DNA from: Diacronema lutheri
Lineage: Eukaryota; Haptophyta; Pavlovophyceae; Pavlovales; Pavlovaceae
Reading direction: 5' to 3'
Assembly: GCA_019448385.1 (NCBI GenBank)
Contig: JAGTXO010000001.1
Location: 2,666,001-2,730,000, forward strand
Length of the DNA: 64,000 nucleotides
Position 1 is the first letter of the stretch. Every line of letters begins with the position of its first letter. The notes under the pieces are model-generated. The model did no database searches. It had not been told where the DNA came from and saw nothing but the letters and a program-made list of their open reading frames with translations. A program made the position numbers and the translations under genes. This document shows positions 46,467-53,212 of the stretch, piece after piece.

Positions 46467-47834
46467 TCAGAGCGAGTCCTGCGACTTGCGCACACACCGT
46501 GCCACGCGTTTCCGAAAGGCCTCCGGGTCATCTCGCCACTCCTTGGCCGCGTCGATGTTCGCCGGCGACTCGTCATTGGGCGACGAGAGCATGGATATGA
46601 CCGAAACCATTATGGATTCGACCGTGTGCACGGGTAGCCATCGCTCGGACGCGCTCTCGTAGCCAAAGTTGTCCTCGCCCGGCGGGTGCAGGATGCTGCG
46701 CGCATGCGACGGCGCCGCGGCGCGAGTCGCGGCGGGAAGTCAAAGGGCAGCCCAGAGCGACAGTAATGGAGGAGCCAAGCGGCGCGCAACGGGCAACGCG
46801 CCAGGCGGCGGCATGGCGCGCGCGTGAGCCAGAGAGCGCGCGCGCGCGCGCGCGCGCATGGCGACGGGAGAGGACGGTTATAGAACGCGCAAGAGGAGGC
46901 GTACGCGACCTGCTTCTGAGCAGATCGCCTCCGTCTGGCGCTCGAAAGGAGGGCATCTCGCGCGCCCGTCGCACACGGGGCGAGGTCGGCGATGGGCGGC
47001 GCGGTGGCGCTTGGGTGCGCCACGCGGCGCTGTGCGGCGCGCGTGGCGCTCACGAGATGCAGACTTTGCCATCCGCGTGAACTGCGCGGCGGGGACCAGG
47101 GGAGGGGCGAGCGGCGAGCGGGGAGCGCGCACGGACAGGGCCAGGCGAGCGGCGAGCGGAGAGCGTGCGCGAGCATGGCGGCGACGTGCACGGCGTGGCG
47201 GGAGGGGGCGCATGGTGAGGGCCTAGTACGGCGGGCGCTCGCTTCTTCTGCGCGCCAGGGCGCCGGTCGGCACGCGGCGCGGCGCGGCGCGCGTCGCGGC
47301 GCGAGGCGCAGAGTGAGGTGCATGGTGGGGCGCCGCACCGTTAGGGTGCCAGAACTCCGACTTGATGAGGAGCTTGGGTGGCGCGTTTGGGTAGTCTCTC
47401 GGGAAGGTCATGAGCGCTTTGAAGAAGCCGCCCTCGCTGCGGAGCGGGTGGTGGCGCCGCGCGTCGCGTAAGCCGCTCGATCGGCTACGGAGGCCAACCG
47501 CCGGCGCGCGCGACCGGCGCGCGCGCGTACTAGGGCGTATCGGGCGGGCCCATGATGCAAATGTCCCAGTCAAAGGGATTGCTCTCATCCACGAGGCCCG
47601 CCGAGAACCCCTCCACGGGGCTCTTGTTGAGCTCTGCGATGCGCCGGCACCGGGCAGCCCGCCAGGAGCGGCCGCACGGGCAGCGTGCCAGATTCCGGTG
47701 CGCGCGCGCGGCCGAGGCGTGGGCGGGTGAGCCGACGGCACAAACGGCGCTCACGCTCAGATGCGCGCGCTCGCGGCTGCGCGCGCACCCTTGAGCTGCT
47801 TCATGAGCAGTAGCGTCGCGCGCGAGTCGCCCAT
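46467..47834 (-). CDS. UBE2G1: Ubiquitin-conjugating enzyme E2 G1 (UBC7 type)
   Basis: E2 of the UBC7/UBE2G class, linked to ERAD and Lys48 chains. Five exons, 47834-47789, 47633-47531, 47436-47339, 47081-47054 and 46695-46467, give 167 aa (human 170). Assembled blocks: '[20 protein letters not shown]', '[19 protein letters not shown]', '[20 protein letters not shown]', '[19 protein letters not shown]', '[18 protein letters not shown]' and '[12 protein letters not shown]'. The catalytic Cys is residue 90, as in animals, and lies in the 28-nt fourth exon. The acidic loop after the active site ([14 protein letters not shown]) is the G1/G2 hallmark. Every exon junction keeps phase and restores family sequence, so the structure is well supported despite five small exons. 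Confidence 0.93.
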
Positions 47835-47952: not shown

Positions 47953-49458
47953 TCATCTCGACCGACGTTTCCGCCGCTTACGCTCGAGGTGGGCATCCGG
48001 CCGTGCGTCCGCGTCGCGCCCTGCGTGCACAACGAGCGCGCCTGCGTAGAGCAGCGCGCGCAGCAGGTCGACGAGCTCGCGCGCGGCCGCGCCCGCGCCG
48101 ACCGCGTTCGTCATCTGCGCGACGGTGCTTCCGCGCGGCTCGAGGAGCAGCCGCACGCCCGGCTCGACGCGCGCGGCGCAGAGCACGCTGAAGCGCAGGA
48201 ATTCGGTGCCCGTCAGCGCGGACGCGCCCGTCACGTGCACAAGCAGCCGGTCCGCGCCGCGCGCCTTGAGCGCGAGCGCGACGAGCGCGCTCGGGCGCAT
48301 CGACGCGTCCGGGCCGACGTCGGACGTGCGCGCGAGGCAGCCGCGCGCGACGAGGAAAGACAGGCTCGCGCCGCGCTCGAGCCCGTCCGAGAGCGCTCGC
48401 TCGGAGGGCAATGCGCGCGGCAGCGGGCACGCGCGCAGAAGGCGTGGAAGCGCGTCGCGCGCGCTCGCGGCGAGCTCGCGCATCGCACCGGAGGGCGCGC
48501 TCGCGCCAAAGTCGACCGTGCCTGCGGGGCACATGGCGGCGACGCCGAGCTCGCGCGCAAGCGCGCCGCCCCCGTCGTGCGGCGCGGCGGCGAGCGCGGC
48601 GAACAGGGCCTCGCACAGCCAGCGCGCGCGCAGGAGCTGGCCGATGCGCAGGTTGACCGAGACGCATGGCCCCGCGACGGGCACGACGCGGTGCCAGTGT
48701 CCGGGCGGCAGATAGAGCACGCTGCCGGGCGCCATGCTGACGCACGCGCAGCCGGCCAGCCCGGCCGGCGGCGCGCGCGCGAGCTGCTCGGCGCGGTTGC
48801 GCGGCGCGTCGAACATGCCGCGGCTGGCATCGGGCCGCGCGCCGCGGTCCGGCGCCTCGGCCGACGTGTGGTACCAGTCCTTCGAGCCGAGCAGCTGGAA
48901 GGTGAAGTTGTGGTTCTCGTCGCGGTGCCACTCGGCGTGAATCGTGCGCGAGTTTGAAAAGTAAGCGCCCACCTCGACGTCATGCCCGCGCTCGGCGCAC
49001 GCGCTTACCCACGCGTCGCTCAGCCGATGCGCGCCGGCGGTGAAGCAGTAAGGCAGGTCCAGCGTTCGCGCGTGCGTCTCGAGGTCGCGCTCCATCGACT
49101 CCATCTCGTCGACCGCGTACCTGCGGCGCGCGCGGGCGCGCGGAAAACGCGCGCAGCGCGCTGGCGGGTCGAAGCCTGCCTCGCGGCGGCACGAGAGCAC
49201 GCGTGCGCGCATACGTGCCGAGCCGCACACGGCGCGCGAGCGCGAGCGCGAGCGCGCGCACGGCGAGTTGTCCGCCTTGCGGCAGTGCGGGAGGACGGCG
49301 GTGAGTTCGCCGCCGCCAAAGCCGTCGAGCAGCTCAGCGAGCACCTCCGGCTGCAGCGCCGTGGTGAAGGGCCGAACGCCCCAGCTCTCGGCGAGGAATG
49401 CCGCCAGCACCGACTCGTCACCTCCCAAGTACGACGCGAAGGACGTGCAGGCCACCAT
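47953..49458 (-). CDS. JmjC/cupin-type 2-oxoglutarate oxygenase, basic C-terminus
   Basis: Likely Fe(II)/2-oxoglutarate hydroxylase or demethylase of the JmjC cupin class. Exons 49458-49262 and 49120-47953 give 454 aa. The phase-2 intron (CC|GTGCGC...CCGCAG) joins 'CRKADNSP' to 'YAVDEMESMERDLETHAR'. The iron site is 'HAEWHRDENHNFTFQLLGS' (His131, Asp133), with the distal His in 'GSVLYLPPGHWHRVVPV' (His207 or 209), and 'VSVNLRIGQ' follows. The C-terminal ~200 residues are helical and end in 'HLERKRRKRRSR', a probable nuclear localisation signal. Relatives include ROX/NO66-like proteins, but the substrate cannot be read from sequence. Divergent from the protease-ClpS gene with 39 bp between ATGs. 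Confidence 0.82.
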   Translation of the reverse strand: MVACTSFASYLGGDESVLAAFLAESWGVRPFTTALQPEVLAELLDGFGGGELTAVLPHCRKADNSPCARSRSRSRAVCGSARMRARVLSCRREAGFDPPARCARFPRARARRRYAVDEMESMERDLETHARTLDLPYCFTAGAHRLSDAWVSACAERGHDVEVGAYFSNSRTIHAEWHRDENHNFTFQLLGSKDWYHTSAEAPDRGARPDASRGMFDAPRNRAEQLARAPPAGLAGCACVSMAPGSVLYLPPGHWHRVVPVAGPCVSVNLRIGQLLRARWLCEALFAALAAAPHDGGGALARELGVAAMCPAGTVDFGASAPSGAMRELAASARDALPRLLRACPLPRALPSERALSDGLERGASLSFLVARGCLARTSDVGPDASMRPSALVALALKARGADRLLVHVTGASALTGTEFLRFSVLCAARVEPGVRLLLEPRGSTVAQMTNAVGAGAAARELVDLLRALLYAGALVVHAGRDADARPDAHLERKRRKRRSR

Positions 49459-49497
49459 GCTGCTTCGTCCACATTTCGCGCGAAGTCGCGCGTGCAG

Positions 49498-50646
49498 ATG
49501 CGCGCGGCCTGGCTGCTCGTGCTCGCCGCCGCACGGCCTCTCGTCTCGAGCATCGGTCGGAGCGCGCTCGTGCGCACGCGGGCTCGCGCGTGGGCGCGCT
49601 TCGCCGAGCCGCGCGCGCGCGCGGCGCTCTCGGCGCCGCAGGTCTCGCCTGTGCAGGCCTCCATCCACGCCGCTGCACCGTCCGTTGCCCTCGTGCTGCC
49701 GCGCGGCGTGCGCAACGCGACACTGCAGGGTACGGCGTTCCGCGTGCTGCGCGAGGACTTTGTGAGCGGCCCGCCGCTGCCCGCTGATGAGCACTGCTGC
49801 TGGCTCATCACCGCCGCGCATGTCGCTGCGCCCGGCTGCACGCTGAGCGTCCAGTTCCCGTCGCAGCGCGCGGCCGTGCGCGCGCAGCTCGTCGGCCGTG
49901 CGACACAAGTGGACGTCGCGCTGATCCGTGTTGAAGCCTCCGACCTGCCCGCCGCCCTTTGGCCGCCGCCACTCCGGTTGAGCGCGCAGCTTGCAACTGT
50001 CGGCGAGAGCGTCATCGGGCTCGGCTACCCGGGCGGCGTCTTTGGGCCCGCCGCGTCGCTTGGCATCGTCTGCGCGCACGCGCCCGCGCTCGAGCTCAAC
50101 GCGTCGACGCCGCTGCTCACGCAGCCGCTCCCCGCCGTCGCGTATGACGCGCGCGACGCCGTCAAGCCCACGTTCGTCGTCACCGACGCGGCACTCGCAG
50201 GCGGGATGAGCGGAGGGCCGCTCATCAATATGTGCGGCGAGGTGTGCGGGATCAACGTGCTCGTCCGGCCCGAGCTGCGCGCGCTCGGAAACTATGCGCT
50301 CGCCGCGCCGCGCGCCACCGAGGCCGTGCGCGCGCTCATCCTCGCGCCCGCGGCCGACGCCGCGGCCGGCGCGCCGCCGGCATCGTGGCGCGTGTTCCTT
50401 TACAATGACAGGATGAATTCGAAAGCGGCGGTTTCGAAGATCCTCGCGGACGCCGGCTTGCCGTCGGACGAGGCCGAGCGGGTCATGTCGGAGGCGCACT
50501 CGCGCGGCCGCGCCGTCGTGCGCACCTTCGCACCGCCGCGCGGCGCGGAGAGCGCCGCTGAGCTGTGCGAGCGGTTGCGTGCGGCCGACCTGCTTGTCGA
50601 GGCGGAGCGCGTCGCGGTCGAGCCCGAGGTTGCGGCGGCAGCGTAG
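49498..50646 (+). CDS. Trypsin-like serine protease fused to a C-terminal ClpS domain
   Basis: Single exon, 382 aa. A hydrophobic leader ('AAWLLVLAAARPLVSS') and basic stretch suggest secretory-route, possibly plastid, targeting. The protease domain (~55-285) has the full triad: His108 ('WLITAAHVAAPG'), Asp139 ('ATQVDVALIRVE') and Ser238 ('GGMSGGPLINMCGEVCGIN'), with 'VIGLGYPGG' between, as in HtrA/Deg-like enzymes. No PDZ domain follows. Residues ~297-375 look like ClpS instead: 'SWRVFLYNDRMNSKAAVSKI' with the Asn303-Asp304 pair, then 'ERVMSEAHSRGRAVV' with Met330 and His334. These correspond to E. coli ClpS Asn34, Asp35, Met62 and His66, which bind the N-degron. The frame is continuous across both domains with no splice signal between. 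Substrate and compartment are inferred. Confidence 0.85.
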   Translation: MRAAWLLVLAAARPLVSSIGRSALVRTRARAWARFAEPRARAALSAPQVSPVQASIHAAAPSVALVLPRGVRNATLQGTAFRVLREDFVSGPPLPADEHCCWLITAAHVAAPGCTLSVQFPSQRAAVRAQLVGRATQVDVALIRVEASDLPAALWPPPLRLSAQLATVGESVIGLGYPGGVFGPAASLGIVCAHAPALELNASTPLLTQPLPAVAYDARDAVKPTFVVTDAALAGGMSGGPLINMCGEVCGINVLVRPELRALGNYALAAPRATEAVRALILAPAADAAAGAPPASWRVFLYNDRMNSKAAVSKILADAGLPSDEAERVMSEAHSRGRAVVRTFAPPRGAESAAELCERLRAADLLVEAERVAVEPEVAAAA

Positions 50647-50784
50647 GCCGCTCGGCGCTCGGCACCTTGTGGTGCTCGGCACTACGCGCGCGCGCCTTGA
50701 CGATGCAACAGCCGTTCTCACGCTGCAACAGCCGTTCAGCTCGGCAATTTCCAGCGTGAGAGTTCTCAGAAATCACATCCATTC

Positions 50785-53036
50785 TCACAGCTCTGCGCTG
50801 CTCTCGATGGAAGGGATCCCGCGGGCTGGCCGGCCAGCCAGCTCGAGCATTGCGTTGTCCGCGCCGTACGCTCGCCCGCTGCCACCACCGCTGCCGACGC
50901 CGTTCCGCCGGAGCTTGAGGCTACCAGCCGATGCGCGTGGCCGCGCATCCAGCCCGCCGGCGCGCTGGTCGGCGAGCTCGGCGAACGGCGCGGCGCGCGC
51001 GCGCGAGGGCCGCATCGAGACCGACCAGTCTGCGCAGAGCGCGTGCGGCCCGTCGCGCTCGTCGGCGCCGCCAGCCGCTCCGGCGCCGGCACGTTCGGCC
51101 GGCAGGTGGCGTTCGCGCATCGCCGGGCTCGTCGACGCGTCCGACCGTTCCGAGTGAGCACTGGGCACCTCAAGGCCACCGCGCGACGCGAGCGCGGGCG
51201 CGGTGGCGGATGCGCCGACGGCGTCCGCGCCGAGCCACTCGGCGGTGAAACTTTGGCTCCGCTCGTCACGCAGGCCGGGCATGGACGCGCGCGCGGCCGG
51301 CGCCGCGCCGAGCGTCTGCTCGCACGCGTAGCCGGCGAGCGCGACGGAGAGCAGCGCCTTGAGGAGGAAGAGGAGGAGCCAGACGAGCGCAATTATCGCC
51401 CAGCCGGTCGGCGAGCGCGTCAGCTGCAGCCATCGCACGAACTGACCAACGGAGCGCACGACGAGGCAAATGAGCGGGATGCAGCTAAAGCCAATCCGCG
51501 TGGAGGCCGCCGCGCTTGACTGCAGCATGTGCGGGCCCGCTTGCCTGTCGTCGTGCCCGCCGGCGACCGAGTTGGCCAGGTCGCGGCACACGACGGCGTG
51601 GAAGCGGCGGTAGATCGTCGGTTGAATCCCGTTGAACTTGATGACGAACGCGTGCTTGATCCAGTCGACGAGTAGCTCGGCGGCGGAGACCATTCCAATC
51701 GCGCCGAGCACGTTGGCGAGCACGACCGAGTCGGCGTGCACGGTGAGGACATGGAGCGCCACGATGAGAAGATAGCATGTGAGCTGAAACCGCTCAATCA
51801 TATCCGAGCAGGACAGGACGAAGAGATTGTCCGGCTCGAAGCGCTTGAAGACGTTCGACTTGAGCTCGACAAAGTTGTTCGAGACGAGCAGCGTGAGCAT
51901 CACGTTGTTGTGCGAGTTGACCGCGACATTGAGAGACACCACCTGCGAAGGCGCGAAGTGAGGCGAGGCGCGCGCGGCGGCGTCGGCCCGGCAGCGCTCG
52001 CGGCGCGGACAGCGCGCGGCGAGTTGTGCCGAGCGCGCGCCTGGTAGAAGAGCACGCACGAGTGGACGACGAGGTACACGGCGACGATCGCAAAGTCGAG
52101 CAGCAGGTGCCCCTGCCACGTGCGCCTCGCCATCGAAGACCAGAAGAGGGTATGCAGAATATCCTGCGCGCGGCGGGCGGGCGGGCGGGCGGCGGGCGCG
52201 CGCACGCGCGGCGCGCGGCGCGGGCACGAGCGGGCACGTCGGCGACGTGGACGGTATCGTTGCGGTGGGTACGCGGAGCGTCCGCCCTAGGGGGACAGGG
52301 GCGCGCCACGGCGAAAACCGGCGGAGAAGCGCGCGCGCGCCTGGCCAAAGGATGCACACAGCTTGTCGAAGACCTCGAGCACGTTGAAGACGACGTACAG
52401 CTTGATCACGGCCTGCCCCTTCACCGAGTGGTACGCCTGCGACGTGTCGATCTGCTCGAGCGCGAGTACGGCGATAGCGATCGCGCCGACGCACATGGCG
52501 TCGCACACCTGCAGCCACGAAAGTCGCCGACGCGCGGCGAGCATGCAGAGGCTCGCTGCGACGCGGAGCGGGAGCATGGTAAGCATGAAGAGGAAGGAGT
52601 CGAGGCAAACGAGATAGCCGAGGACGAGCAGCTTTTCCAGCTCCCACGGCGCGCGCAAGAAGTGGTAGACCCCCTTGCGACGCCGGCGCGCCGACTCGTC
52701 CTCCATCTCCGCCGTCACGGTCTCGTCGACGCCGACGAGCAGCTGGTGGCCGATGAAGGAGAGGAAGGAGACGGGCGCGGGCGGTCCGGCGCTCGGACCC
52801 GTGCGCTCTTCCTCCTCGCTCGCTCGGCCGCCGGCCGACGGTGAGCGCGGTTGCGACGCGGGCAGCCGGCTCGGGAGCGCGGGCGACGTGCTCGCGGGCG
52901 ACAGCGCGAGCGGAGGCGTGAGCGCGCGGCGGCCGGGCGCGTCGGGCGCCGACGGCGCGAGCTCGTCGCGCGCAAGTAGCGGCTGCCGTGCCTCCCCGCA
53001 TCGCGGCGGCCTGTTGAAGAGCGGCGACGCCTCCAT
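50785..53036 (-). CDS. TAPT1: TAPT1/EMP65-family multi-pass membrane protein
   Basis: Homologue of TAPT1, found at the ciliary base or in the ER, and of yeast Emp65. Exons 53036-52341, 52163-52041 and 51942-50785 give 658 aa. Signature blocks: 'FLRAPWELEKLLVLGYLVCL', 'YHSVKGQAVIKLYVVFNVLE', 'DKLCASFGQDILHTLFW', 'SLNVAVNSHNNVMLTLLVSN', 'NNFVELKSNVFKRFEPDNLF' and 'LLVDWIKHAFVIKFN'. Both introns have a GC donor (CAG|GCGCGC). The joins are fixed by the FGQ-DILHTLFW and FYQ-VVSLNVA alignments and by phase, so no GT alternative fits. An N-terminal disordered region precedes the membrane part. The ~170-residue C-terminal tail is Ser/Ala-rich. The ATG at 53036 is the first available. Confidence 0.93.
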
Positions 53037-53212
53037 CCCGGCGCCCGTCCACACGTGGCTGAATCCTGGCCGCTAGCCGAGGGCGGCCGGCATGCCGAGG
53101 ATCAGATCCGGGGCGTCAGAGGCCAGTCAGCCATGTACTGACTGACGACTGACAGGCGGACCGCGTGACTCGCGCGGAGCCGCGCACACCCGAGCCGAGC
53201 GGGCGCAGCGCC

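Follow-up and report, generated by a model that had tools for sequence, protein, structure and literature searches.

HtrA proteases carry a C-terminal PDZ domain that binds C-termini and switches on the active site, and the adaptor ClpS normally does no more than pass substrates on to an ATP-driven unfoldase. A locus in the haptophyte Diacronema lutheri raises the question of whether a protease and a ClpS adaptor can reside in one polypeptide. It lies in a 64,000-nucleotide stretch of contig JAGTXO010000001.1 (assembly GCA_019448385.1, positions 2,666,001 to 2,730,000; hereafter the window, to which coordinates refer unless a locus is named), where an earlier reading made from the letters alone (the sequence-only reading) had proposed a serine protease fused to ClpS, which binds N-terminal degradation signals (N-degrons). 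We find that a single frame does encode both domains, and that the fusion is conserved rather than a one-off. With moderate confidence, we take its product for a one-chain plastid protease, independent of ATP, that uses a built-in recognin to select substrates by their N-degrons. The sequence-only reading knew of no described fusion of this kind, and the literature in PMC, outside which subscription papers and bioRxiv preprints mostly lie, likewise yielded no published description of a protease-ClpS fusion among the matches listed.

One reading frame encodes an HtrA-type protease and a ClpS domain

The frame at 49498-50646 (+) contains no internal stop, and its best placement in the genome is at 100% identity. 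Pfam profiles place Trypsin_2 (PF13365) at residues 102-252 (E-value, E, 5.6e-18; 66.5 bits against a cut-off of 27.6) and ClpS (PF02617) at residues 293-359 (E 4.7e-8; 33.1 bits against 23). The uninterrupted frame with an HtrA/Deg-like domain and ClpS therefore stands as first described, and the ClpS match, which the sequence-only reading had allowed might fall below significance, lies above its cut-off. In the NCBIfam scan, HtrA-type families rank first, below cut-off (degP_htrA_DO, 59.1 against 416.2 bits), and the ClpS families give weak matches to the 382-residue protein, also below cut-off. The features of the gene are as follows, with residue conservation here and below counted in an alignment of 92 members (P0001-P0092) of the family described in the next section.

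49498..50646, + strand: entire coding frame of the protease-ClpS fusion, 382 residues plus stop, ATG to TAG, with both Pfam domains
49498..49653, + strand: N-terminal leader, residues 1-52, a hydrophobic stretch and then an Arg/Ala/Ser-rich part
49666..50304, + strand: HtrA/DegS-like protease domain, about residues 57-269
49819..49821, + strand: catalytic His108, kept in 91 of 92
49912..49914, + strand: catalytic Asp139, kept in 91 of 92
50083..50172, + strand: variable loop preceding the nucleophile, residues 196-225, with low predicted local distance difference test (pLDDT) scores at about 200-220 and length variation in the family
50209..50211, + strand: catalytic Ser238 within GMSGGP, kept in 92 of 92
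50305..50364, + strand: helix linking protease to ClpS, residues 270-289, with no PDZ domain (predicted structure and Pfam scan)
50374..50613, + strand: ClpS domain, residues 293-372 (Pfam profile, fold and alignments)
50404..50409, + strand: Asn303-Asp304, counterparts of the pair that binds the N-degron amino group, 88 of 92 each
50422..50424, + strand: Lys309 in the gatekeeper column, where E. coli ClpS has Met and Arabidopsis ClpS1 has Arg
50497..50499, + strand: His334, counterpart of the pocket His; the preceding Ala333 replaces Val, as in Arabidopsis ClpS1

The N-terminal part of the protein has the chymotrypsin fold of HtrA-type proteases with a His-Asp-Ser triad. The triad had been numbered correctly in the sequence-only reading, and the few misses in the alignment are gaps: P0083 and P0091 each show one at a triad position, where they are incomplete or misaligned. 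The fused domain has the ClpS fold. As the protease dominated a fold search with the whole model, the ClpS part was folded and searched separately; by profile, 12 of 12 isolated fused ClpS domains match ClpS at E 0.01. No PDZ domain appeared among the Pfam matches (E 0.01) of the 48 family members scanned, which bears out the proposal that ClpS takes its place. The fused ClpS domain does not have a free, disordered N-terminal extension, as it follows the protease through the helix at residues 270-289. In ClpS, this extension is engaged by ClpA (PMC9663308; here and below, articles are cited for the passages of them that were available).

Compared with the HtrA/Deg proteases (DegS, DegP, HTRA1 and plant Deg1), the fusion lacks a PDZ domain, falls far below the NCBIfam cut-offs and has motifs of its own (GVRN, GMSGGP and LRALGNYA). 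The loop at residues 196-225 presumably occupies the place of HtrA loop L3; the spacing between two sequence marks ahead of the nucleophile ranges from 8 to 70 residues (median 38) in 86 of 97 family members; for P0093, an ordinary Do protease, a count by eye gives 19 residues. HtrA/Deg proteases without PDZ domains have already been described (PMC3473262).

The fusion is conserved in Pavlovales and diatoms

A protein search, which scored 7,998 candidates, returned 93 proteins including the query at E 0.01 or better, and 88 of these carry both PF13365 and PF02617. A profile search returned 104 proteins. Both domains are present in 81 of the 85 that scored E 3.9e-64 or better, and the remaining 19 (E 2.7e-14 or worse) include none with a ClpS domain and 16 with PDZ. 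The combined family comprises 97 members (P0001-P0092 and P0094-P0098), 93 of which have both domains in the same order. Because both domains occur in 88 of the 93 proteins, and in P0075, a complete open reading frame from an MMETSP transcript, the fusion is more than a chance juxtaposition.

Named members come from Pavlovales sp. CCMP2436, Seminavis, Cyclotella (two), Thalassiosira, Stephanodiscus, Attheya and Amphora. The search of other haptophytes that the sequence-only reading had suggested thus found the same architecture in Pavlovales sp. CCMP2436, and extended it beyond haptophytes to diatoms. Scoring was limited to candidates that shared most words, and lineages were read from named hits, so that absence elsewhere is uninformative. 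Within the D. lutheri genome the fusion is the single strong match, followed by HtrA-like loci at E 2.7e-5 and 5.8e-5. Automatic annotation names already pair the two domains ('S1-C subfamily serine protease/ATP-dependent Clp protease adapter protein ClpS').

The ClpS pocket resembles that of Arabidopsis ClpS1

Aligned with ClpS proteins of known structure, the fused domain keeps N303, D304 and H334 (88 of 92 each), counterparts of the Asn-Asp pair and His that we take to bind the free amino group. M330 aligns with a conserved ClpS Met (88 of 92), and A333 is kept in 89 of 92. The gatekeeper column occupied by K309 is basic in 87 of 92 members (Arg in 51, Lys in 36); in this column E. coli ClpS has the Met of NDDYTPM, and Agrobacterium ClpS2 and Arabidopsis ClpS1 both have Arg. 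The sequence-only reading was therefore right about the Asn-Asp pair and His and wrong about the gatekeeper Met, which is replaced by Arg or Lys; M306, near the Asn-Asp pair, is not the pocket-gate Met. A Met gatekeeper of the E. coli type is not required of all ClpS proteins.

Among solved structures, Arabidopsis ClpS1 (PDB 7d34) is both the best sequence match (profile E 1.2e-13) and the first Foldseek match. Its basic gatekeeper (Arg for Met) accompanies recognition of Phe and Trp, and weakly of Leu, in one study; another found Phe, Tyr, Leu and, lowest, Trp (both in PMC7966870). A Val-to-Ala change, a slight enlargement of the pocket and weaker contact to Leu are also reported for it (PMC11371169). 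The fused domain has both the basic gatekeeper and Ala for the pocket Val, and because it shares these two changes with ClpS1, its pocket is predicted to prefer Phe and Trp.

The likeness to ClpS1, a plastid protein, ends with the surroundings of the domain: ClpS1 is a small free adaptor that passes substrates to ClpC/ClpP, whereas the fused domain forms the C-terminus of a protease without a free N-terminal extension. The apicoplast ClpS (PDB 4o2x) has neither a protease domain of its own nor a basic gatekeeper (the aligned residue is Phe). In the UBR-type N-recognin E3 ligases a ClpS domain is likewise joined covalently to an effector, which there performs cytosolic ubiquitin ligation and not direct proteolysis.

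Leader sequences are of plastid type in much of the family

The leader of the D. lutheri protein (residues 1-52), whose mean pLDDT is below 60 in the first four ten-residue blocks, would comprise a signal peptide and a transit-like region. To the 97 family members we applied a leader test, excluding 8 without a Met start, 9 without a mark of the protease start and 8 with leaders of fewer than 30 residues. The motif [AVSGTC]x[ASGCT]-Phe lies behind the hydrophobic stretch in 51 of the 72 leaders tested, as against 21.8 +/- 3.4 (maximum 33) in 500 shuffles, although the test was devised after some leaders had been seen, many sequences are close relatives, and a few matches (e.g. P0068) may fall in the protease start. 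Among named diatoms, 5 of 7 have it (P0010, P0018, P0029, P0059 and P0085). This motif is of the type of the ASAFAP signature of diatom plastid import, in which the +1 Phe is common and crucial (PMC4329603).

We also read by eye the leaders of D. lutheri light-harvesting proteins at 30 loci (L034-L063) of 52 matches, several of them near-identical paralogues. Of 26 distinct upstream stretches, 16 show an aromatic residue (15 Phe, 1 Tyr) behind the presumed signal peptide, and the other 10 have no leader in frame. Four of seven Clp loci examined carry the aromatic motif (L027, L030, L031 and L032; not L026, L029 or L033). It is missing from the leaders of the free ClpS proteins of D. lutheri (L004 and L007), as it is from that of the fusion; another compartment or self-protection are possible reasons for its absence from all three.

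By these leader sequences, a plastid location is well supported for the diatom members and plausible for the D. lutheri fusion, for which the periplastid space is an alternative. The plastid or secretory leader suggested from the sequence alone thus holds statistically as a plastid type for the family, and for 5 of 7 named diatoms, but in D. lutheri itself is only signal-peptide-like.

The fusion adds to an ordinary Clp route

Besides the fusion, the D. lutheri genome contains a ClpS gene that has NKR at its gate and, to judge from profile pieces, probably consists of two exons (L007); a ClpS that groups with apicoplast ClpS (L004); and a UBR-type frame with a UBR box (E 6e-20) and ClpS (E 4.5e-7; L006). 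A further ClpS-profile match is doubtful at 21.9 bits against a cut-off of 23 (L008, G000:C75:306129-306311); by eye, its frame seems to hold two similar repeats. Clp_N matches occur at four places in the genome and ClpP at ten, exons counted apart. Since the ordinary Clp genes are present, the fusion is an addition to the Clp route and not a replacement.

In a tree of 16 short sequences, the nine fused ClpS domains cluster separately from free ClpS with 93% ultrafast bootstrap, consistent with one fusion event; the same tree, whose inner nodes are weak, gives no support for descent of the fused domain from a free ClpS of D. lutheri. A prokaryotic origin of the fusion was considered and rejected on the strength of a scan of prokaryote genomes with two peptide patterns, which could miss distant fusions and found none. 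Its 48 stretches gave five relatives, all matching the protease part only (query residues 103-255 or less), and a ClpS profile run in every frame of these five loci gave no match at E 10, although it did pick up both controls. Viral carriage was rejected as well, on a scan limited to two patterns that gave four stretches and no relative. A search with the ClpS part of P0006 alone returned 3 matches from 20 candidates, the query and two known members, and is uninformative about other ClpS fusions.

In bacterial conflict systems, 'L12/ClpS' domains are inserted in vWA proteins, and are not fused to trypsin in the available passages of that source (PMC7159879). An actinobacterial operon with ClpS likewise has neighbouring genes and no protease fusion (PMC1779556, in the part available). 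Antarctic Nitzschia has expanded 'ClpS (K06891)' genes (PMC13149256), an expansion that might include such fusions.

Neighbouring genes

An antisense frame of 922 residues (47953-50721, -) overlaps the protease gene. Its only Pfam matches, JmjC_2 and Cupin_8 at residues 580-690, lie outside that gene, the Cupin_8 match just under its cut-off. The overlap looks like a by-product of high G+C content. The start of a divergent cupin-type gene probably lies near 49460 (-), in a back-to-back arrangement with the protease gene. Further along the reverse strand, 47223-47741 (-) holds a fragment of a ubiquitin-conjugating enzyme (PF00179, E 2e-7), probably one exon, and 50785-53052 (-), just downstream of the protease gene, encodes a eukaryotic membrane protein (PF05346, DUF747; E 4e-64).

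Proposed mechanism and alternatives

Peptide binding, specificity, activity, oligomeric state and the location in D. lutheri we infer from the features described. The gene product would be a preprotein with a leader of signal-peptide type, and the mature protein a serine protease of HtrA type, independent of ATP, whose usual C-terminal PDZ domain, a binder of C-termini, has been swapped for ClpS, a binder of N-termini. The ClpS domain would capture proteins or peptides that start with a bulky aromatic residue, predicted to be Phe or Trp, and the captured N-degron may be held beside the active site or may activate the protease by way of the loop that precedes Ser238. Recognin and protease would thus act in one chain, in the diatom plastid and, in Pavlovales, probably in the plastid or the periplastid space. 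With no need for ATP and no unfolding power, such an enzyme would likely act on peptides, transit peptides and unfolded proteins.

Several observations weigh against this proposal. A recognizable ClpS domain is missing in 4 of 97 members (P0005, P0085, P0090 and P0092), although three of these (P0085, P0090 and P0092) end at one common spot just ahead of the Asn-Asp pair, which looks like an intron read through in unspliced genomic translation. P0098 (378 residues) has Leu for the catalytic Ser and is possibly an inactive paralogue that retains its ClpS domain. Asp replaces the ClpS Asn in P0042 and P0080, the Met before the nucleophile (GMSGGP) is invariant where aligned HtrA chains have Asn or Ala, and the ClpS pocket could serve another ligand. 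In the leader test, the Phe motif was absent from the diatoms Attheya (P0024) and Stephanodiscus (P0082) and from the transcript frame P0075. It is also lacking in the D. lutheri fusion, where the hydrophobic peak begins at residue 3, and in its closest relatives P0002-P0005 (of the pavlophyte-type members P0001-P0005, P0004 is assigned by name and the others by identity). Because the motif is missing there while the light-harvesting proteins of D. lutheri have it, the compartment of the fusion in this organism is uncertain.

The points that touch the integrity of the gene raise the question of whether two adjoining genes have been read as one through an error of assembly or annotation. The common break in P0085, P0090 and P0092 would allow an intron near the junction in some diatoms, but the D. 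lutheri frame is open throughout in a polished long-read genome (PMC8379373), and the shared domain order of 93 of 97 members, one of them the complete transcript frame P0075, makes the probability of such an artefact negligible; we rejected it. It is quite improbable, too, that the ClpS domain no longer binds a ligand and instead supports oligomerization or stability as a structural replacement for PDZ. A gatekeeper and pocket unlike those of E. coli ClpS, and the two members with Asp for Asn, could be read in this way; the amino-binding residues, however, are near-invariant across relatives, some only 31-40% identical to the query, and the changed residues match those of Arabidopsis ClpS1, which binds N-degrons. 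A slightly better case, though still an unlikely one, can be made for ClpS as a docking module on the N-domain of plastid ClpC that anchors the protease to trim or pre-cut Clp clients, with N-degron binding secondary. ClpS cores do bind ClpA N-domains (1mbu and 1r6o are among the fold matches), and D. lutheri has Clp_N and ClpP matches. Docking alone would not need N303, D304 and H334, all of which are kept; columns 345-347 are gapped in 50-71 of 92 members and 348-352 are variable, in a region that presumably faces ClpA in bacterial ClpS; and the N-terminal extension used by ClpA has been replaced by the protease.

The strongest of the alternatives, if itself unlikely, is a special case of the N-degron-selecting protease for red-lineage complex plastids, the type found in diatoms and Pavlovales. 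Here the enzyme would read the N-terminal Phe exposed by signal peptidase and clear cut-off transit peptides or unprocessed precursors. Favoring such a presequence protease are the aromatic leaders at light-harvesting and Clp loci of D. lutheri, the importance of the +1 Phe in diatom import noted above, a pocket of the Phe/Trp-preferring Arabidopsis type and the restriction of named family members to algae with such plastids. The case is circumstantial, however: this pocket type also occurs in plants, which lack such presequences; in the stroma, transit peptides are normally removed and could fall to other peptidases; and the distribution, resting on named members, is incompletely known. Were it true, the +1 Phe would be import ticket and degradation signal at once, and failed imports would be cleared by a one-chain, ATP-independent N-degron pathway.

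For the broader proposal of a plastid protease that selects its substrates by N-degron, the consequences reach beyond D. lutheri. The in vivo nature of chloroplast N-degrons is yet undetermined, and it has still to be demonstrated in vivo that substrates are selected and delivered in a ClpS1-dependent manner (PMC11371169). A conserved, covalent recognin-protease would constitute a second, energy-independent kind of N-degron degradation, and the cleavage products and trapped substrates of a protease with its own recognin would name chloroplast N-degrons.
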